Shown here: positions 18,957 to 49,059 of the stretch, one piece after another
How positions within the stretch are numbered: position 1 is the stretch's first letter
Layout: the number at the start of each line of letters is the position of its first letter
DNA from: Tunturiibacter empetritectus
GTDB taxonomy: Bacteria; Acidobacteriota; Terriglobia; Terriglobales; Acidobacteriaceae
DNA: 64,000 nucleotides
Reading direction: 5' to 3'
Assembly (NCBI RefSeq): GCF_014201375.1
Contig: NZ_JACHDZ010000002.1
Location: 124,001 to 188,000 of the forward strand
Position numbers and translations under genes: made by a program
The notes under the pieces: generated by a model
Told to the model about the DNA's origin: nothing
What the model saw: the letters and a program-made list of their open reading frames with translations, nothing else
The model's database searches: none

Positions 18957-19029
18957 AGATAAGTGCTTTAGCAACGCCGTCGAGTTGCGAATCTCCCCAC
19001 ATCCCGATAGCATCCAAACTAAGAACGCC

Positions 19030-19215
19030 GGCCTGCAAAGCAGGTACGCGAACAACGCTGGTTGAACCAACATTCATTGAACAGGGGCCTGGCTCGTAGA
19101 CATGGTTCGGTGTGCAGTCCTCCAGTCAGGAACGCCTAAAGAGCCACGGCAGGGTCCCGCCGTCTTAGGACGGGTTCACCAGCGCTTCGACGTACGGCCC
19201 AGTGGGTCGGTCTTC
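19030..19215 (+). ncRNA. ssrS: 6S RNA candidate
   Basis: A long hairpin with the layout of 6S RNA: outer stem AACGCTGGTTGAACC (19054-19068) pairs with GGTTCACCAGCGCTT (19173-19187), flanked by GTACG/CGTAC (19044-19048 with 19191-19195). Inside, TGGCTC pairs with GAGCCA, and a terminal hairpin TCCT-CCAGTC-AGGA is followed by ACGCCTAAAG, resembling the apical part of E. coli 6S (terminal stem then AAGCCTTAAA). 6S mimics an open promoter and binds the housekeeping RNA polymerase holoenzyme. The 1.3 kb distance to zapA supports the call. Ends are approximate. Confidence 0.62.
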
Positions 19216-39370: not shown

Positions 39371-40150
39371 TTAGCCATTTCTCCAGAAGAAATAAGCAGC
39401 CATCATGCATCCTGTAATCACAACGATCGTTCGCAGTACATTCGCATTCATACGCCGAGCATATTGTGCTCCAACATACCCGCCAACGCCGGCAAATATC
39501 ATTGAGATCAGGCAATAACGCCATATGACTGCGCCACTCACTACAAACGTAACCACGGCGCAAAAGTTGGACAAACACGCCGCAAGCACCTTCAGTGAGT
39601 TCAACGCGTTCATCTCCTCTACTCCAAATAACGCCAGCGCGCTCATGATCAAAAAGCCAGCACCGGCTCCAAAGTAGCCAATGTAAAAGCATACCGGCAG
39701 CAGCACAAAAAACAGCGGCTTCACCGCAGGGGATCTCTTGATATGAGGCTCAGACGACCGCTTCCGCAGCCACTGTGAAACCGGGCCACTAATTCCAAAC
39801 AAGAGAGAAGCGACCAGCAGCAGCCACGGAACCATATGCAGAAACGTGATTTGCCGGGTATTCAGCAGTACCGCAGCTCCGCTTACTCCTCCTAGAACTG
39901 AAGCCGCACAGACAACCGGCAAGAGTTCCCGGGTTAGGTCTCCTCGTAACGCAGCAACCGAGGTCAGCTGTCCCGGCCATAGCGCGACGGTATTCGTCGC
40001 ATTTGCCTGAATAGGGGCTACCCCAATGGAGAGCATAGCCGGAAAGGATACGAACGATCCTCCACCAGCCATAGCATTCATCACGCCAGCGACAAGAGAT
40101 GCTGTGACCAGCCAAACGTAATGCCAATGCGAACTAAGATTCGAGATCAT
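39371..40150 (-). CDS. TSUP-family permease (TauE/SafE)
   Basis: 259 residues, about eight membrane helices. AGVMNAMAGGGSFVSFPAML and IGYFGAGAGFLIMSALALFG are the paired conserved motifs of the TauE/SafE family, each in one half of the protein. Family members move sulfite, sulfonates or other organic anions. It is separated from the cys operon by the ABC ATPase gene and may be independent of it. Confidence 0.88.
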   Translation of the reverse strand: MISNLSSHWHYVWLVTASLVAGVMNAMAGGGSFVSFPAMLSIGVAPIQANATNTVALWPGQLTSVAALRGDLTRELLPVVCAASVLGGVSGAAVLLNTRQITFLHMVPWLLLVASLLFGISGPVSQWLRKRSSEPHIKRSPAVKPLFFVLLPVCFYIGYFGAGAGFLIMSALALFGVEEMNALNSLKVLAACLSNFCAVVTFVVSGAVIWRYCLISMIFAGVGGYVGAQYARRMNANVLRTIVVITGCMMAAYFFWRNG

Positions 40151-41115: not shown

Positions 41116-41880
41116 CTAATGGTGCGATGCGGCAAAAGCGTTCGTGTAGATGAACTGCGATCCGACAACCAGAAGCCACACCCAAAGAGCGAATCGCAGG
41201 GGTCTCTTGGGTATCCACCGCACGGCAACTGTTCCAAGAGCAACGCCCGCAAGGCCTCCAAGAATCAAGTGCTGAAGAAGAGTTGAGTTAGTCCCATGAA
41301 AGAAGCCATGGGCACCGCTACCGATGAGCGAGAGGAGAAAGCCAAAGACAATATCGGTTCCAACCACTTGCGCCGGTGTGAGAGAAGTCAGACTGAGCAG
41401 AGCCGCGGTGCCCAACGCTCCAGCTCCTGCAGAAGAAAAGCCCACCTCAACTCCAAGAGGCAGCATCAGAAAAGGGAGTAGGCGACTGCGATCCTTTGGC
41501 GGAGCTTCGGTTCTCGCCGGTCGAAAGGAGAAAAAAATCTGCCAGAGTGCCGTTAGAACCAGTACGCCCCCCAGAAGGCCGTTCAGCAGAAGTTGCGGTC
41601 CGTGAACGTCCAGGTGACGGAGCACAAGCGAGCCAATAAGAACCCCCGGCAAACCGCCGACCAGCATCAGGCTAAGAACACGCCATGAAACCTGCTTACG
41701 AGCGATCTGCGATGGCACCAGAACAAGTTTGACGGCAGCAGAAAACATGAGCCCCGTGGCCACAGCCATCGGCGCTGGAACTCCAAGAAACAAAATGAGC
41801 AGCGGTGTTGTGATCGTACCAGCACCGACGCCGGTCAAAGCGATGAAGACGGCGATAATAAATCCGATGGCGTATTCCAT
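41116..41880 (-). CDS. TSUP-family permease of the cys operon
   Basis: 254 residues, about eight helices, with ALTGVGAGTITTPLLILFLG and VEVGFSSAGAGALGTAALLS as the two TauE/SafE motifs. Last gene of cysD-cysN-cysH-TSUP (33 bp after cysH), so probably a sulfate or sulfite transporter feeding or relieving the pathway; no ABC-type sulfate importer is in the window. Confidence 0.85.
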   Translation of the reverse strand: MEYAIGFIIAVFIALTGVGAGTITTPLLILFLGVPAPMAVATGLMFSAAVKLVLVPSQIARKQVSWRVLSLMLVGGLPGVLIGSLVLRHLDVHGPQLLLNGLLGGVLVLTALWQIFFSFRPARTEAPPKDRSRLLPFLMLPLGVEVGFSSAGAGALGTAALLSLTSLTPAQVVGTDIVFGFLLSLIGSGAHGFFHGTNSTLLQHLILGGLAGVALGTVAVRWIPKRPLRFALWVWLLVVGSQFIYTNAFAASHH

Positions 41881-41913: not shown

Positions 41914-42618
41914 TCACCGGTTTGGAGCGGCCTGAATGTGAATGCCGCACTCGACCTTGCGGCCAGCCCAGCGACCAGACCGTGGGTCGTTGGGATCTGT
42001 AGGGATCGAGGTGCAGGGTTTGCAGCCGATGCTGGTGTAGCCGACGTCGTAGAGCGGCAGGAGAGGGATGTCGTAGAAAGCGCACACCTGCCAGATGTCC
42101 CGCGTAGTCCAGTCGGCGAAGGGGCTAAGCTTGCGAACGGTGATGCCGCCGGGCAGCGTGAAGTCTGTAATCTCTTCAAGCGCAGTGCGGCTACGCGCCT
42201 GTTCGCGGCGGAGACCCGTAAGCCAGATCTTGTAGTTGCCGACCGCAGAGAAAAGCGGCTCGACTTTGCGTAAGGCACAACAGCGGTCCGGTGCGGTCTG
42301 GTAGAGCAGTCCGTGCTCAAGCTCCTGTTCCGCCACTGTACGGGTTGGAAGAAGATTCGTAAGGTTCAGCTTCCAGTCGACTGCAATCCGGTCGCGGTAG
42401 GCATATGTTTCCGGGAAATGGTAGCCCGTGTCCAGAAAGAGGACCGGGATATCAGGCCACAGTTCGCGAACGAGATGGAGGAGAAGAACATCCTCGGCCT
42501 GAAAGCTGCAGGTAAGGCAAGCATCATTCTCGATAGGTGTTTCTGGCAACTCTCGAACGAGGAGTTCGCGGACGTGTGCGAGTTTGGCATCAGGCATGGG
42601 GGACTGGAGAGTAGTCAT
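41914..42618 (-). CDS. cysH: Adenylylsulfate (APS) reductase
   Basis: 234 residues. The PP-loop-like fold is followed by the catalytic C-terminus GRKVECGIHIQ. Two Cys pairs that bind a 4Fe-4S cluster, RCCALRK and GCKPCTS, mark it as the APS-reducing type rather than the cluster-free PAPS reductase. It reduces APS to sulfite and AMP using thioredoxin, so no APS kinase is required. ATG overlaps the cysN stop by one base (TAATG). Confidence 0.9.
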   Translation of the reverse strand: MTTLQSPMPDAKLAHVRELLVRELPETPIENDACLTCSFQAEDVLLLHLVRELWPDIPVLFLDTGYHFPETYAYRDRIAVDWKLNLTNLLPTRTVAEQELEHGLLYQTAPDRCCALRKVEPLFSAVGNYKIWLTGLRREQARSRTALEEITDFTLPGGITVRKLSPFADWTTRDIWQVCAFYDIPLLPLYDVGYTSIGCKPCTSIPTDPNDPRSGRWAGRKVECGIHIQAAPNR

Positions 42619-44294
42619 TATCGGTTTCCTCCCGCAATGACGGCTTGGGTCTCGAGAAAACGAAGGAGATCATCAACGTCGGATAGGACGGCCTGCCTTG
42701 AGCCGAAACGAACTGTCTTCTCCTCAGATGTATCGTGAGTCAAGACGAGGGCTCCTCCAGCGGTAAGCACGGCAATGGATTCCTCAGAGGGGAACTCAGG
42801 GCGAACGAGGAAAGCACCCCGAAGAAAGAGAGTTCGTTCCACCGCATCGGCGAAATGAAGTGGACCGAAGAGATGAATGTGCGCTCCAGAGTGGCCCCAA
42901 CGCTCGCGTCGGTCAGCCTCTGTCACTACGTTTGTCGCCTTGGCAATCGTTTCAACGCCGACAGACCGGATCATTCCTGCAGCGACGGTCAGATTCGTTA
43001 CAGAATCGATCAGAACGAAGCTTCCGGTGATGCGGTTTGTGGAGTAGCTGTCAACAGAGAGCGGCAGAACAGATTCAATTTTTACCAGGCCGATATCGTT
43101 AAACTTCAGTGTTTCGACTGCGTCTTGTTTCAGGGTTTCTACGTCAAGCCGATATCGAATATCAGTGATCTGAACCTGAACGGTCCTGCTGGTATGCTTC
43201 AGTAAGTAGCGGCGTGCAAGGTCGAGAGGCTTCTCATCCATCCAAACAAGGGAAGCAGTGAAGTTCCTTGTCGTGATCGCCGGAGATTCGGGAGCGACGA
43301 TCAAGTCGCCTCTACTAATGTCAAGTTCATCTGTAAGAGTAAGGGTTACAGATTGGGGAGTCTGTGCCTGAGCAAGATCGCCATCGAAGGTAACGATACT
43401 GCGCACGCGGTTTATTCGGCGGGACGGGAGCACCATGATGGCATCCCCAGGGCGGATTGTTCCCGCCGCGATCTGTCCGGAAAATCCACGAAAGTCCTGG
43501 TTGGGGCGAAGGACACGCTGGACCGCGAAACGAAAAGGGTGGGCGACTCCGGCCTCCGCAGCGGGGACCGATTCAAGTAGTTCGAGCAGCGAAGGTCCTT
43601 CGTACCAAGGCATGGCAGCGGTTGGGCGAACGACATTGTCGCCGGTCAGCGCGCTGACTGGAACGAAGTAGAGGTGCGGCGGACGCATATCACCCAGTTC
43701 GTCAAAAAATGCGGTGAAGTCAGCACCGATCGCGCTAAATGCCTGCTTCTCATAGTTGACGAGATCCATCTTATTGACGGCGACGACGATGTGGCGAACG
43801 CCAAGGAGCGCGGTTATGCAGGCGTGGCGGCGAGACTGAGTGAGCACACCCTTTCGCGCATCGACAAGAACGATGGCAAGAGAAGCAGTTGAGGCGCCAG
43901 TAGCCATATTGCGGGTGTACTGCTCGTGGCCTGGCGTGTCGGCGATGATGAATTTGCGGTTGGCGGTGGAAAAATAACGATAGGCCACGTCGATGGTTAT
44001 GCCCTGCTCGCGCTCGGCACGGAGCCCATCTGTCAGAAGAGCAAGATCGACGCTGTCCGCGCCCGTGGTGCCCTTGCCCGTAATCGAATGGACCTGATCT
44101 TCGTAGACGCTCTGCGTGTCGTAGAGTAATCGGCCGATGAGGGTCGACTTCCCATCATCGACTGAACCGGCAGTGGCGAAGCGGAGCAGATCACGGCCAT
44201 GCTCATTCGCAAGAAAATTGGCGAGAGAAAACGTTGAGTCTTCTTTGAGCTGTGTGTCTACATCCAGCTTCGGAATGAATTCGCTGGTAGGCAT
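42618..44294 (-). CDS. cysN: Sulfate adenylyltransferase large subunit (GTPase)
   Basis: 558 residues. GTPase P-loop TAGSVDDGKSTLIGRLLYD, switch II DTPGHEQYTRN and NKMD specificity motif, then the EF-Tu-like beta domains. GTP hydrolysis drives APS formation by CysD. About 80 residues remain beyond the usual end (~475); they contain no P-loop and are not a working APS kinase (see findings). Its ATG follows the cysD TAA without a gap. Confidence 0.92.
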   Translation of the reverse strand: MPTSEFIPKLDVDTQLKEDSTFSLANFLANEHGRDLLRFATAGSVDDGKSTLIGRLLYDTQSVYEDQVHSITGKGTTGADSVDLALLTDGLRAEREQGITIDVAYRYFSTANRKFIIADTPGHEQYTRNMATGASTASLAIVLVDARKGVLTQSRRHACITALLGVRHIVVAVNKMDLVNYEKQAFSAIGADFTAFFDELGDMRPPHLYFVPVSALTGDNVVRPTAAMPWYEGPSLLELLESVPAAEAGVAHPFRFAVQRVLRPNQDFRGFSGQIAAGTIRPGDAIMVLPSRRINRVRSIVTFDGDLAQAQTPQSVTLTLTDELDISRGDLIVAPESPAITTRNFTASLVWMDEKPLDLARRYLLKHTSRTVQVQITDIRYRLDVETLKQDAVETLKFNDIGLVKIESVLPLSVDSYSTNRITGSFVLIDSVTNLTVAAGMIRSVGVETIAKATNVVTEADRRERWGHSGAHIHLFGPLHFADAVERTLFLRGAFLVRPEFPSEESIAVLTAGGALVLTHDTSEEKTVRFGSRQAVLSDVDDLLRFLETQAVIAGGNR

Positions 44295-45206
44295 TTAGAA
44301 ATAACCCTCGTGCTTCTTAAGTTCCATTGACCCTTCCTGATCGTGATCGATCACACGATTCGCGCGCTCCGACGAACGGAAGGAAAGCAGTTCCTCGATA
44401 ATCTTGGGCAGCGTATCGGCATCCGAGCGAATCGCTCCGGTGCACGGACTGCAGCCGAGAGAACGAAGCCTGGAGAGCACCATCTGCCGTTGCTCCCCAA
44501 GCCGGGCAACGAAGCTCTGTTCAACCGGAAGAAGCGCACCTTCGCGGACATACATCGGCCGTTCTTTTGCAAAGTAAAGATCGACGATGGGAATGTCTTC
44601 CTGCAGGATGTACTGCCAGACGTCCATCTCGGTCCAGTTCGAGAGCGGAAAGACACGGATCGACTCACCGGGGTGAATCCGCGAGTTGTAGAGGTTCCAG
44701 AGCTCAGGACGCTGGGCCTTCGGGTCCCATTGGCCAGCCTTGTCGCGAAATGAGTAGATGCGTTCCTTCGCGCGAGACTTCTCTTCATCGCGACGTGCAC
44801 CACCAAACGCAGCATCAAAACCGTAATGATTAAGGCCATCGAGCAACGCCTGCGTTTTAAGCAGGCCACAGCATCGTTTGGTGTCGAGCGCTATCGGATT
44901 CGTGCCTGAAGCAATGGCAGGCTCGTTTCGCCAGACAAGAAGTTCAGCTTCAACTTCAGCTGCCATGCGATCGCGAAACTCGATCATCTCGCGGAATTTG
45001 AACCCAGTATCGATATGGAGGAGAGGAAACGGGATCGGAGCCGGAAAGAAGGCTTTTTGCGCAAGCCGCAGCATCACAGAGGAGTCTTTCCCGATCGAGT
45101 AGAGCATGACGGGGCGTTCAAACTCGGACGCAACCTCGCGAAGGATATGAATGCTCTCGGCTTCGAGAAGCTGCAGATGCGTAAGTGCCGTTGCGGCCAA
45201 TGCCAT
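44295..45206 (-). CDS. cysD: Sulfate adenylyltransferase small subunit
   Basis: 303 residues, same as E. coli CysD. PP-loop [56 protein letters not shown] and [15 protein letters not shown] are the ATP and sulfate site segments. Start at 45206: GGAG six bases upstream and the family N-terminus [19 protein letters not shown]. First structural gene of cysDNH-TSUP, preceded by a cysteine-rich leader reading frame on the same strand. Confidence 0.93.
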
Positions 45207-45211
45207 GACAG

Positions 45212-45225
45212 ACTCCAGAGGGAGT
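45212..45225 (-). promoter_or_regulatory. Hairpin covering the cysD ribosome-binding site
   Basis: On the minus strand ACTCC-CTCT-GGAGT folds back so that the GGAG ribosome-binding site is paired. A TCCTCCAC directly after the leader stop codon (plus 45289-45296) can also pair with that GGAG. Both fit translational control by leader-peptide translation. Confidence 0.55.
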
Positions 45226-45268
45226 TTCGGATGCAACTTACCCAAAGCACAAAGCTCAGGAAAAGTGT

Positions 45269-45287
45269 CTGAAAAACAGTTTTTTAG
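45269..45287. repeat. Near-palindrome in the cysD leader
   Basis: CTGAAAAAC-A-GTTTTTTAG, an almost perfect 19-bp inverted repeat between the leader stop and cysD. Possible protein site or weak RNA hairpin. Confidence 0.4.
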
Positions 45288-45296
45288 AGTGGAGGA

Positions 45297-45368
45297 CTAG
45301 CGCGTGAGTCGACACGCCTGCTCGACGTTAAAAGGGCAACAACAACGGAGCTGGCATGAGATGCGCAT
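45297..45368 (-). CDS. Cysteine-rich leader peptide upstream of cysD
   Basis: 23 codons, five of them Cys, with SCQLRCCCPF in the first half and QACRLTR at the end. The ATG follows TGCTATTCT (extended -10, plus 45379-45387) by ten bases, with TTGCCT (plus 45402-45407) as -35 at 17 bp, so the start of translation lies only about 3-4 bases from the predicted transcript start. It has no ribosome-binding site, as expected for leaderless translation. The position ahead of the sulfate-activation operon and the CCC run suggest that ribosome speed at Cys codons controls cysD. Too short for domain evidence; the call rests on position, promoter and composition. Confidence 0.7.
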   Translation of the reverse strand: MRISCQLRCCCPFNVEQACRLTR

Positions 45369-45488
45369 TTCTATCCCCAGAATAGCAAAGCGCAGAAGCA
45401 GAGGCAAGTCTTGGTGGTCGGTTCGGGAGTCTTGTCACTCAAAAAGCGAGCTGCGATCCGGCTGGATAAAAAAGTCTTGTGCTACTAT
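45369..45488. promoter_or_regulatory. Divergent promoter region with three AGTCTTG copies
   Basis: Minus promoter: TTGCCT-N17-TATTCT (plus 45402-45407 and 45379-45384). Plus promoter: extended -10 TGCTACTAT (45480-45488) with a poor -35. AGTCTTG occurs at 45407-45413, 45428-45434 and 45473-45479; the first two are 21 bp apart (two helical turns) and the first touches the minus -35, while the third abuts the plus extended -10. These are candidate binding sites for a sulfur regulator acting on both operons. Confidence 0.5.
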
Positions 45489-45495
45489 TCGGTTT

Positions 45496-45576
45496 ATGGC
45501 TCTGACCTTCCACTATGCCGTTACTGGCTGTCGTTGTTGTGAAGCAGGTCTGCGCCTCTCGCCGTCGCGAAACTAG
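45496..45576 (+). CDS. Cysteine-rich leader peptide upstream of the TonB receptor
   Basis: 26 codons with GCRCCEAG in the middle and LSPSRN at the end. The ATG is 7 bases after the -10 TACTAT, so the transcript is predicted to start at or next to the ATG (leaderless). Stop codon TAG at 45574. It precedes the TonB-dependent receptor by 231 bases. Its Cys cluster, leaderless layout and divergent partner upstream of cysD argue for a cysteine-sensing leader rather than chance. A longer in-frame reading from 45304 is possible but has no promoter support. Confidence 0.65.
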   Translation: MALTFHYAVTGCRCCEAGLRLSPSRN

Positions 45577-45807: not shown

Positions 45808-48800
45808 ATGTTCCGCCGATCAATTTTTCTCATAGCCCCATTTCTACTTGCAACGGTTTCCAGCGCCCAGATCGTAGGTGGAACGATCGGCGGTATTATC
45901 ACGGATCCCTCAGGTGCAGTCGTTCCCGATGTCCAGATCACGATTCGTAATCAAGAGACAGGCGGGGAGCGCCACCTCATCTCCGACGCTGCCGGAGCAT
46001 ATGCTGCACCCTCGATTCCCGTTGGTGTTTATGCGATCTCGGTGGTGCGCGAGGGCTTCGCTCCGCAGACACGCGCCGGGATTTCTCTCACCGTAGGTCA
46101 AGCCACGCGCATCGATCTCACGCTGCATCCGGGTAATATCACAGAACAGATCACCGTTACGGATGTGCCCTCGTCTGTCAATCTTTCCACCCAGCAGATC
46201 TCCGGTCTCGTCAACGAGCGCCAAGTCAAAGATCTTCCGCTCAATGGCCGCTCTTACGATCAACTCATCACGCTGAATCCTGCGGCGGTGAACTACACAG
46301 CGCAGCGCAGCGGATCGGTTGGAACCTCCAACTCCTCCGTGGGCAGTATGTTTGCGATCTCTGGTCGACGCCCGCAGGACAATCTCTACCTGCTCAACGG
46401 CATCGAATACACCGGCGCATCGCTGATCAACATCACCCCGGGCGGCACCAGCGGTCAGCTTCTCGGTGTCGATGCGGTACGTGAGTTCAATGTCGTCAGT
46501 GACACATACTCTGCAAGTTATGGAAAGCGTCAGGGAGCCCAGATCTCCATCGTAACGGCCTCGGGCACCAATAACGTCCACGGTTCTGCGTACGAGTTTC
46601 TTCGTAACTCTTTCTTCGATGCACGCAATTATTTCGACCAGACCCACATTCCGAACTTTCAGCGCAATAACTATGGTGCCTCTCTCGGCGGCCCCATTCG
46701 CACCAATCGGCTTTTTCTCTTTGGCAACTACGAAGGCTATAGGCAGAACCTTGGGATCACCGACGTCACGCTCGTCCCTGATACTCAAGCTCGACAAGGC
46801 CTGCTTCCCGACCCGGCTAATCCCGGCGGAACTCGCAAAAATTATGGCGTTGCAAACGGAGTTAGACCTTTGCTTAACCTCTGGCCTGCACAAAACGGCC
46901 CAGAACTCCTCGATGCCAAGGGCCACCCGACCGGAATTGGTGAAGCTTTCTCGAATCCCACCCAGCACATCCGCGAGGACTTCGGCACCGCGCGTTTTGA
47001 CGCCAACCTTACCTCGCGTGACCTCCTCTTTGCTGTCTACACTGCGGATGATTCCACCGCCAACACGCCTACGCAAAACCCCTTCTCGCTCATCAACGAA
47101 TCGCTGCGAGAACAAGTCGTCAGCATCCAGGAGCAACACGTCTTCTCCGCGCACCTGTTAAACACCGCCCGCGTTGGCTACTCCCGCGCTAGCTTTTTCT
47201 TCCTCGGCAATATTCCCTCTTCCATCCAGACCGACACCCCTGGCTTCCTCGCGGGCAAGCCGACTGGAGCTATCGTGATCGCGGGTTCTACCGCCTCCAA
47301 TGGCTCATCGCAGATCACCGGCGCCGGTGCCAACGTTGGATCGAACAATGCCACGGCGCGCAACCTCTATACCTTCGATGACCACGTCTTCTACTCACGC
47401 TCGCGTCACCAGATTGAGGTCGGCCTTTGGCTTCAGTCACTTCAGTCGAACGATAATCTCGCCCAGAACCAGTACGGCCAAGCCTCCTTCGCTTCACTCA
47501 CTACATTCCTACAAGGAACTGTCAAGACCTTCACCGTTGTTCCCAATCCCACGCCTCTGAATTGGAGGAGCTTCATGAGCGCAGTTTATCTCGAAAATAC
47601 CTGGCAACTTACGCCAGTGTTTGAGATTCGCGGCGGGATTCGCTTCGAATCCACCAATGGCTGGAACGAATCCCACGGTCGTGCCTCGCAATATGGCTTT
47701 ACGAATGGCATCATCAATACCACTCCAACGACAGGAACCTCCGCCCTGTCGAACAATCGCGCGAAGATTCTCTCCGAACCGCGAGTCGGCATTGCATGGA
47801 ACGTCTTCGGCAATGGCAAAACCTCGCTTCGCTCCAGTGTTGGCCTTCATCACTCTCTTCTCGACAATCTCGACTATCGCCTCGACCAGGCCGCGCCCTA
47901 CAACACAACTCTCTCCTACTCCAACGTATCTATTGCAAGCCCGATAAGCGGCGCTCCAGGGCTCATCTCTCCTTCTAATATCCAACCCGATATCTCGACT
48001 CCGGCCGTAGTCTCTTACGCACTCAGCATCGAACAGCAGCTTGATCAAACGACCTCAATTACCGTTGGCTATGTAGGCTCTCATGGTTATCACCAGATCC
48101 TTTCGGAGGATCAAAACGAACCCGGTTCCATCATCTGCTCTCCGAACTCAAGCTGCCCTCTAGGTACTTCGACCGGAACGATCTACTATCCTACGACGGT
48201 CAAAGCGAACCCTCTGGTAGCCAACACCACGTCATGGACCTCCGGCGGCTCCAGCAACTACAACGCCCTCGAGGTTGACCTTCGCCGCAACCTGGCACAC
48301 GGCTTGCAACTTCGAGCCAACTACACCTTCGCCAAAAATCTCGACGACGGCTCTGCCTGGAATACGAGCGTCTCGGCCAACACTCCGGCGTTTGTTTCTT
48401 ATCCGGGGAATCCTTCGCTGGATTACGGCCCCGCGGCGACTGATATTCGCCACCTCGCTACCTTCAACGCGACATACGAGCTACCCGTTGGTCGTGGCCA
48501 CTTTCTCTTATCCACTGTACCGCCGTTGATCAACCACGCGGTATCTGGATGGAGTCTCAGCACCATCGCAACACTCCAAACCGGATTTTCCTTCAGCCCT
48601 CAACTCGGCTATAACCCTACAGGATCAGGTGACACCCGAAACCCCGTCCGCCCCAACCTCAATCCCGACTTCCATGGGAGGCTTTACGCTAGCGGCAGCA
48701 CCTCTACTCGCGTTGCGCAATTCTTCTCGCCTGCCGCCTTCTCCGCACCTGCATATGGCACCATCGGGAGCCTCGGCCGCGACACTCTTACTGGCCCAGG

Positions 48801-49059
48801 TTATGCAGACTGGGATCTCTCACTTCTAGAATCTACCGTGCTGACTGAGGCGACCAGACTCCAGTTTCGCGCCGAGTTCTTCAACGTTCTCAACCACACC
48901 AACCTACAAACACCCAACGAAGTCGTTTACACAAGTGGCCCTACTCAGGGCACAACCGCTAATCAGACTGCCGCCGCTGTTCAAAGCCCCACTGCCGGTG
49001 TCGTCACCGCAGCCTCCACCAGTCGTCAGATCCAACTCGCGCTCAAGCTCATCTTCTAG
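45808..49059 (+). CDS. TonB-dependent receptor, Oar-like, with N-terminal carboxypeptidase-regulatory-like domain
   Basis: 1083 residues. Signal peptide (FLIAPFLLATVSSAQ), a CarboxypepD_reg-like beta-sandwich (about 22-105: GGTIGGIITDPSGAVVPDVQ, then FAPQTRAGISLTVGQATRID), a plug domain with DLPLNGRSYDQLITLNPAAVNYTAQ and DNLYLLNGIEYTGASL, and a large barrel ending QIQLALKLIF. Typical of acidobacterial SusC/Oar-type outer-membrane importers. ATG 45808 follows GGAG by eight bases. Located beyond a Cys-rich leader and divergent from the cys operon, so a sulfur-containing substrate is a reasonable inference. The GH3 gene follows on the same strand. Confidence 0.92.
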   Translation: MFRRSIFLIAPFLLATVSSAQIVGGTIGGIITDPSGAVVPDVQITIRNQETGGERHLISDAAGAYAAPSIPVGVYAISVVREGFAPQTRAGISLTVGQATRIDLTLHPGNITEQITVTDVPSSVNLSTQQISGLVNERQVKDLPLNGRSYDQLITLNPAAVNYTAQRSGSVGTSNSSVGSMFAISGRRPQDNLYLLNGIEYTGASLINITPGGTSGQLLGVDAVREFNVVSDTYSASYGKRQGAQISIVTASGTNNVHGSAYEFLRNSFFDARNYFDQTHIPNFQRNNYGASLGGPIRTNRLFLFGNYEGYRQNLGITDVTLVPDTQARQGLLPDPANPGGTRKNYGVANGVRPLLNLWPAQNGPELLDAKGHPTGIGEAFSNPTQHIREDFGTARFDANLTSRDLLFAVYTADDSTANTPTQNPFSLINESLREQVVSIQEQHVFSAHLLNTARVGYSRASFFFLGNIPSSIQTDTPGFLAGKPTGAIVIAGSTASNGSSQITGAGANVGSNNATARNLYTFDDHVFYSRSRHQIEVGLWLQSLQSNDNLAQNQYGQASFASLTTFLQGTVKTFTVVPNPTPLNWRSFMSAVYLENTWQLTPVFEIRGGIRFESTNGWNESHGRASQYGFTNGIINTTPTTGTSALSNNRAKILSEPRVGIAWNVFGNGKTSLRSSVGLHHSLLDNLDYRLDQAAPYNTTLSYSNVSIASPISGAPGLISPSNIQPDISTPAVVSYALSIEQQLDQTTSITVGYVGSHGYHQILSEDQNEPGSIICSPNSSCPLGTSTGTIYYPTTVKANPLVANTTSWTSGGSSNYNALEVDLRRNLAHGLQLRANYTFAKNLDDGSAWNTSVSANTPAFVSYPGNPSLDYGPAATDIRHLATFNATYELPVGRGHFLLSTVPPLINHAVSGWSLSTIATLQTGFSFSPQLGYNPTGSGDTRNPVRPNLNPDFHGRLYASGSTSTRVAQFFSPAAFSAPAYGTIGSLGRDTLTGPGYADWDLSLLESTVLTEATRLQFRAEFFNVLNHTNLQTPNEVVYTSGPTQGTTANQTAAAVQSPTAGVVTAASTSRQIQLALKLIF

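Follow-up and report, generated by a model that had tools for sequence, protein, structure and literature searches.

A cysteine-codon leader peptide upstream of cysD, a putative member of a cysteine regulon in Acidobacteriaceae

The sulfate-assimilation operon in the 64,000-nt stretch of DNA analysed here (the window) raises the question of what purpose is served by a short, Cys-rich frame that begins only a few bases past the promoter 5' of cysD. The frame, on the minus strand, has 23 codons, five of them for Cys, and runs from an ATG at 45368 to a stop ending at 45297; the boxes of the promoter are separated by 17 nt (TTGCCT-N17-TATTCT), and the leader stop is followed after 90 nt by the cysD ATG (45206). 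The coordinates, the Cys count, the promoter boxes, the 90-bp gap and a hairpin over the cysD Shine-Dalgarno (SD) sequence had all been given in the initial annotation of the window and agree with the sequence and its translation. The best explanation, and one that we consider likely, is that the frame encodes a leader peptide which senses cysteine and belongs to a group that would make up a cysteine regulon in this clade.

The cysD leader, its promoter and its operon

The features of the locus, from the promoter to the last gene considered, are the following (window coordinates):

45402..45407, minus strand: -35 box TTGCCT of the cysD leader transcript (sequence; TTG in 14 of 15 aligned loci)
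45379..45384, minus strand: -10 box TATTCT, extended (TGC before it), 10 nt 5' of the ATG (sequence, alignment)
45297..45368, minus strand: leader peptide 1, MRISCQLRCCCPFNVEQACRLTR, stop included (sequence, translation, comparison with relatives)
45336..45344, minus strand: Cys codons 9-11 (TGT TGT TGC), presumed sensing tract (conserved in the nearest loci, see below)
45242..45296, minus strand: C-rich, G-poor stretch 3' of the leader stop, possible Rho loading region (from composition)
45212..45225, minus strand: small hairpin ACTCC-CTCT-GGAGT over the cysD SD sequence, covering GGAG (sequence; 8 of 10 near loci)
44295..45206, minus strand: cysD, sulfate adenylyltransferase subunit 2 (PAPS_reduct domain)
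42618..44294, minus strand: cysN-type GTPase subunit (EF-Tu-like domains)
41914..42618, minus strand: cysH-type APS/PAPS reductase (PAPS_reduct domain)
41116..41880, minus strand: TauE/SafE-family (TSUP) transporter (domain scan)

The names cysD, cysN-type and cysH-type are those which we take to apply, judging from the domains and the order of genes in the operon. The leader has no match in Rfam (at gathering level), NCBIfam or Pfam. Downstream of cysDNH, a second TauE/SafE-family transporter (39371-40150, minus strand) is present besides the one listed, and a frame between both transporters resembles, by eye, a peptide-type ABC ATPase. Elsewhere in the window, a 6S RNA is found at 19027-19212 on the plus strand (Rfam RF00013, 49 bits).

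Recurrence of Cys leaders in relatives and at other genes

Regions upstream of cysD were taken from the first 21 of 80 loci in one contig collection and from 130 loci (30 + 100) of same-class genomes, of which 173 of 299 contain cysD at E <= 1e-60; family labels were assigned to 129 of these 130 loci. According to a loose rule (a short frame with at least three Cys in eight residues), 54 of 59 loci from the family to which the window belongs have a Cys-cluster frame ahead of cysD, and 43 of the 59 combine such a frame with a start-proximal -10 box. The corresponding counts are 14 and 11 of 16 loci in the sister family, and 4 and 1 of 52 loci in a third family; neither of two further same-class cysD loci has a Cys-cluster frame. 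Among 59 cysD loci from other phyla (L022-L080) we found no -10-positioned Cys leader, and Cys clusters without such a box occur in three.

A lone frame of 23 codons is weak evidence, and it could have arisen by chance beside a cysD promoter that is governed by a transcription factor. A strict rule (TANNNT 5-11 nt 5' of the start and at least three Cys in eight residues), applied to 400-nt cysD upstream regions, gave sense matches in 62 of 147 regions, compared to four in antisense, and 20 dinucleotide shuffles averaged 0.8; when identical regions were collapsed into one, the numbers became 57 of 140 in sense and four in antisense. Three of the four antisense matches (in the window, L084 and L090) are the genuine divergent leader of a receptor gene described below. 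The loose rule matched 12.7 of 147 regions in shuffles, and the entire window holds four strict-rule frames, two of which are the cysD/receptor pair. The cysD leader frame is not a product of chance: the sense excess over antisense and shuffles, the distribution among families, the -10 spacing and the recurrence at several unrelated genes all speak against a coincidental frame under other control, to which we assign a negligible probability.

Outside the Cys residues the leader peptides vary widely (e.g. MVFAAQRMCCCCRMLPCPCVRCCC, MKGVYCCCQCFSCCCC and MRRVFTDRCCCLL), and in the alignment of near relatives it is the -35 TTG, the extended -10 box, the ATG and the Cys core that stand out. The initial annotation had proposed that an alignment upstream of cysD be inspected for the Cys codons and for the SD hairpin. 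The CCC run is kept in the window and in all nine nearest loci, with one additional in-frame Cys codon in the leader of L089; of the 10 nearest loci, 8 have the hairpin (L087 in a shorter form), and L089 and L090 lack it.

The position of the start was assessed in 65 distinct leaders from the own and the sister family, with the most upstream ATG or GTG taken as the start. TANNNT occurs 5-11 nt 5' of the start in 38 of them, compared to seven at 12-18 nt and five at 19-25 nt, and an SD-like word was seen in two of the 65. In 51 distinct cysD leaders the distance from the -10 box to the start is 6-11 nt, under a rule that allowed 5-11. Transcription in the window would begin at 45372, 7 nt past the -10 box, which would leave a leader of 4 nt and make the message near-leaderless rather than leaderless. 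Acidobacteria are among the groups with predicted leaderless genes in the available part of the analysis by Zheng et al. (2011, PMC3160421). The idea, already contained in the initial annotation, of a leaderless or nearly leaderless Cys-rich leader in front of sulfate-assimilation genes thus gains support from recurrence, -10 spacing and the conserved Cys codons.

Translation of the leader might merely aid initiation at cysD, by reinitiation or as a ribosome antenna, with no sensing of cysteine involved. Leader genes have been proposed as reinitiation aids, with a distance peak also in Acidobacteria, in the portion of PMC4833913 available to us, but this proposal concerns gaps of about 10 bp, whereas the leader stop and cysD are at least 78 nt apart in 62 loci. 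Such a role would also leave the Cys codons unexplained, and we regard it as highly improbable.

On the other side of the intergenic region, a second Cys-rich frame points towards a receptor gene:

45483..45488, plus strand: -10 box TACTAT, 7 nt 5' of the divergent leader ATG (sequence)
45496..45576, plus strand: leader peptide 2, divergent, MALTFHYAVTGCRCCEAGLRLSPSRN (window and 6 of 10 other near loci examined)
45808..49059, plus strand: TonB-type outer-membrane receptor, CarboxypepD_reg and OMP_b-brl_4 (domain scan)

The divergent leader of three relatives contains GCCCC. The genome to which the window belongs has 55 matches to this receptor family, and among the 30 best, which were examined, a Cys leader was found at one, the gene in the window. 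The divergent leader suggests that this receptor may serve sulfur uptake. In a relative, another CarboxypepD_reg/OMP receptor (L310, minus strand) is preceded by a leader starting with MRQSHSGRCCC.

Cys leaders were also found at sulfite reductase-type genes (cysI), where they occur at 22 of 30 NIR_SIR loci from 29 genomes of the genus; the remaining eight loci may be paralogues. The start lies 6-7 nt past the -10 box in 20 of the 22, and these 20 would be leaderless. In the genome of the window, the cysI leader is MVSSTQLTPMACRTCCHDCVRRCLCLSCRLTR (L232, C1 around 1336129-1337884, minus strand), with a terminator behind it, ahead of the sulfite reductase gene. Another leader in this genome, MHLHHSFFCCCRRSPLA, stands ahead of an AhpC-TSA/redoxin (thioredoxin-like) gene (L316 1513-1566, C1 near 1262000); it recurs in two relatives that were fetched, and similar pattern matches are found in two more. 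A Cys leader is therefore a feature that cysD, the receptor, cysI and the redoxin gene share within one genome. All five long-frame cysteine-dioxygenase (CDO) genes (L281, L282, L283, L284 and L287) have leaders, e.g. MAFSLFHCCCCDQPFVG; the sole long CDO gene scanned is a CDO-rhodanese fusion, and the 11 loci with shorter CDO frames yielded one weak leader candidate (L276). A Cys leader is odd before a catabolic enzyme such as CDO, unless CDO frees sulfur from other thiols.

No convincing Cys leader was found at the cysKM (30 loci, some cut by contig ends), cysE-like (four) and SulP (one) loci scanned, the candidate at L361 being a poor one. Of the 29 genus genomes, 28 give no match to the sulfate-binding-protein family TIGR00971, and the other gives a weak one. 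The two pattern searches are noisy, with a reversed-pattern control giving comparable numbers, and single matches were therefore used only where the leader frame recurs or precedes a sulfur gene. Two further loci were noted: in L261 (minus strand) a Cys-rich leader is followed by a strong terminator (AAAGCCCGCC...GGCGGGCTTTTTTT) and then by a secreted protein whose rhodanese match falls below threshold, and in L397, near 1453 on the plus strand, a Cys-rich leader and a terminator precede a membrane protein that presumably resembles YeiH-type transporters.

Clusters of Cys are able to bind metals, and one of the leaders is followed by a redoxin gene; the peptides might accordingly be metal- or redox-binding small proteins, or nascent-chain sensors (e.g. 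of copper), instead of sensors of Cys-tRNA. On the other hand, the number and spacing of the Cys residues vary, from CCC to CCCCC to CRTCC, the downstream genes are mainly those of sulfur assimilation and thiols, and the antiterminator discussed below starts past the Cys codons, as stalling on codons needs. A binding peptide is, in our opinion, quite improbable.

Terminators, antiterminators and the output at cysD

A terminator-like hairpin, typically GCCCAC-loop-GTGGGC with a U-rich tail, follows 20 of the 21 cysI leaders given. A terminator-like hairpin is also found after 22 of 62 cysD leaders, and in 21 of these the distance from the leader stop to the T run is 58-74 nt; by family, these 22 matches comprise 13 from the sister family (two contigs having been fetched twice), six from the own family and three at loci with no family assigned. 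In both sets, pairing is possible between the stretch just 3' of the Cys codons and the spacer together with the terminator's 5' arm. Both antiterminators were picked by eye from the same sequences on which they were tested, which favours them, and the pair statistics ignore relatedness; read in this light, the cysI antiterminator has 81.3% of cells paired, compared to 75.4% in shuffled alignments (0 of 500) and 28-48% in slid ones, two-sided change in 8 of 12 pairs compared to 4.2 (4 of 500) and a covariation of 0.242 compared to 0.170 (0 of 500), while its pair types are no better than shuffled (133 of 500). With the same reservations, the cysD antiterminator, aligned in 14 rows (11 from the sister family, one from the own family and two unassigned), has 73.7% of cells paired compared to 67.5% shuffled (0 of 500) and 35-49% slid, and a covariation of 0.232 compared to 0.154 (5 of 500); its counts of two-sided-change pairs and of pair types do not exceed the shuffled level (263 and 230 of 500), and on some measures one of the slid versions is close to the real one. 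Pair counts and covariation support the view that antiterminator and terminator would be mutually exclusive at cysI and at the terminator-bearing cysD.

A covariance model built from the cysI set (R1), in which only eight terminator pairs were retained, gave 15 matches in 14 of 121 genomes. Twelve lie directly upstream of cysI, six of these at loci outside the set used for building the model; of the others, one precedes another gene with a Cys leader and a terminator, and two are plain terminators.

In a model of co-transcriptional folding, a ribosome stalled at the Cys codons leaves the antiterminator stretch free, and a ribosome at the stop covers it. The stalled value is that of whichever of two stall sites performed better; on this basis, the terminator's 5' arm was sequestered at 0.58 when stalled vs 0.24 at the stop for cysI (n = 20), and at 0.74 vs 0.37 for cysD (n = 18). 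When the leader part was shuffled, the comparison of real with shuffled sequences was 0.57 vs 0.44 (cysI) and 0.72 vs 0.56 (cysD), and the median fraction of shuffles that reached or exceeded the real value was 0.20 and 0.15, respectively. Much of the modelled contrast between stalled and unstalled states is generic, and the case was therefore rested on the pair counts and the constant layout. At equilibrium, the terminator prevails in most states, and for this reason folding did not tell stalled from unstalled ribosomes apart at most loci; the argument thus requires folding to be co-transcriptional.

At the cysD of the window itself, no intrinsic terminator was found between leader and structural gene, while the cysI of the same genome has one, and no mutually exclusive structure comparable to the antiterminators of cysI and of the terminator-bearing cysD was seen. 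Terminator-free cysD leaders folded with the ribosome at the stall and at the stop gave no common switch among the results listed. Here, translational attenuation in the mycobacterial style, with the leader peptide controlling access to the cysD ribosome-binding site and not transcription, is a serious rival. The hairpin at 45212-45225, which covers the SD sequence and recurs in most near loci, would suit it, and the mycobacterial systems have been described as translational in the excerpts available. The initial annotation had gone further and suggested that stalling at CCC opens this hairpin. In folding of the eight near loci that keep it, the SD sequence was paired both when no ribosome was present and when one was stalled at CCC or stood at the stop, with an unpaired probability of at most 0.05 in all modelled states; since the hairpin stays closed throughout, the opening mechanism is unsupported by the model. 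That the SD remains paired wherever the ribosome stands, that L089 and L090 lack the hairpin and that related leaders have terminators also make translational control as such rather unlikely. What stands of the earlier interpretation is the Cys leader, without the opening of the SD; the divergent second leader and the wider regulon were not part of it.

A different output is suggested by the RNA between leader and gene. In terminator-free leaders, the 55 nt past the leader stop have a mean C content of 0.343 and a mean G content of 0.166, and a C/G ratio of at least 2 is found in 27 of 44 of them, compared to 2 of 18 terminator-bearing leaders. The same ratio occurs in 3 of 128 control intervals upstream of promoters and in 11 of 106 from cysD loci taken as having no leader, mostly of the third family. 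C-rich, G-poor RNA 3' of the leader, as expected of Rho-dependent leaders, is thus present as judged by composition alone, and we consider it about as likely as not that Rho acts on the interval past the leader stop of the window's cysD. Rho has been suggested for mycobacterial cys leaders from polypyrimidine motifs, in the part of Seliverstov et al. (2005, PMC1262725) at our disposal.

For the leader as a cysteine sensor, we propose the following course of events. Transcription would start at the leader ATG or a few bases 5' of it, and the ribosome would load on the 5' end without an SD sequence, as the promoter spacing implies. With Cys-tRNA plentiful, the ribosome would reach the leader stop and the message would end before the structural genes; with Cys-tRNA scarce, the ribosome would stall on the Cys run, the downstream RNA would change, and transcription would proceed to cysDNH and to the gene for the transporter. 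At cysI, at the cysD of the sister family and in a few lineages of the own family, the message would be ended by an intrinsic terminator, and a stalled ribosome would free the end of the leader frame for the antiterminator to form. At the cysD of the window, the message would be ended by Rho acting on the C-rich stretch past the leader stop. We lean, with moderate confidence, towards an Acidobacteriaceae regulon built from leaderless peptides that would combine terminator attenuation (cysI, sister-family cysD) with Rho-type control (own cysD, perhaps the divergent receptor).

Relation to known leader systems and biological meaning

Polycysteine leaderless short ORFs of mycobacteria were reportedly described by Canestrari et al. 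in 2020. As far as that description reaches us, the acidobacterial frames resemble them as short frames of leaderless type with runs of Cys codons, associated with cysteine metabolism genes and present in several copies per genome; a small frame ahead of the gene with Cys codons in direct succession, one mark of the mycobacterial type, is found here too. They differ in occurring in another phylum, in having terminators and antiterminators at cysI and some cysD, in including TonB-type receptor and long CDO genes among the members, and, at the window, in that SD unmasking is unsupported, as judged by folding.

Ribosome-mediated transcription attenuators of the trp type comprise regulatory codons, an antiterminator and a terminator, and counterparts of all three are seen at cysI and some cysD. 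Unlike in the trp-type systems, it is Cys that would be sensed and the start has no SD sequence, and the cysD of the window has no terminator. Should the proposed regulon be real, we know of no earlier one with leaderless initiation feeding terminators of the trp type.

In the sections of Seliverstov et al. (2005, PMC1262725) that we could consult, Cys leader peptides are given for Mycobacterium, Propionibacterium acnes and Bifidobacterium longum, together with actinobacterial examples of trp-type attenuators. As at the cysD of the window, Cys codons there come in runs ahead of cys operons, and no conserved terminator is present; those leaders differ in belonging to Actinobacteria and in the place of the Cys run, which is near the stop there and 12 codons before the stop in the window. 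The uORFC-8-2 motif upstream of cysS in Rhodobacterales (PMC8632094) likewise has tandem Cys codons in a leader frame, then a terminator-like end, but, as far as the accessible text goes, it is alphaproteobacterial, concerns one gene (cysS) and is presented with no reference to a leaderless start. Among the open-licence literature matches listed, we found none that reports Cys leader peptides from Acidobacteria or leaderless peptides that feed intrinsic-terminator attenuators.

These comparisons suggest that leader peptides which read cysteine are not a speciality of actinobacteria. If our interpretation is true, genes for an outer-membrane receptor and for thiol dioxygenases would be under the charging level of one tRNA. 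The leaders may also help to recognise genes for sulfur scavenging in a phylum that is common in soil, for example by singling out, from dozens of TonB-type receptors, the one that serves sulfur supply. Furthermore, one kind of sensor coupled to outputs with and without a terminator would provide a natural comparison, by which the question of how terminator-free Cys leaders work becomes testable.
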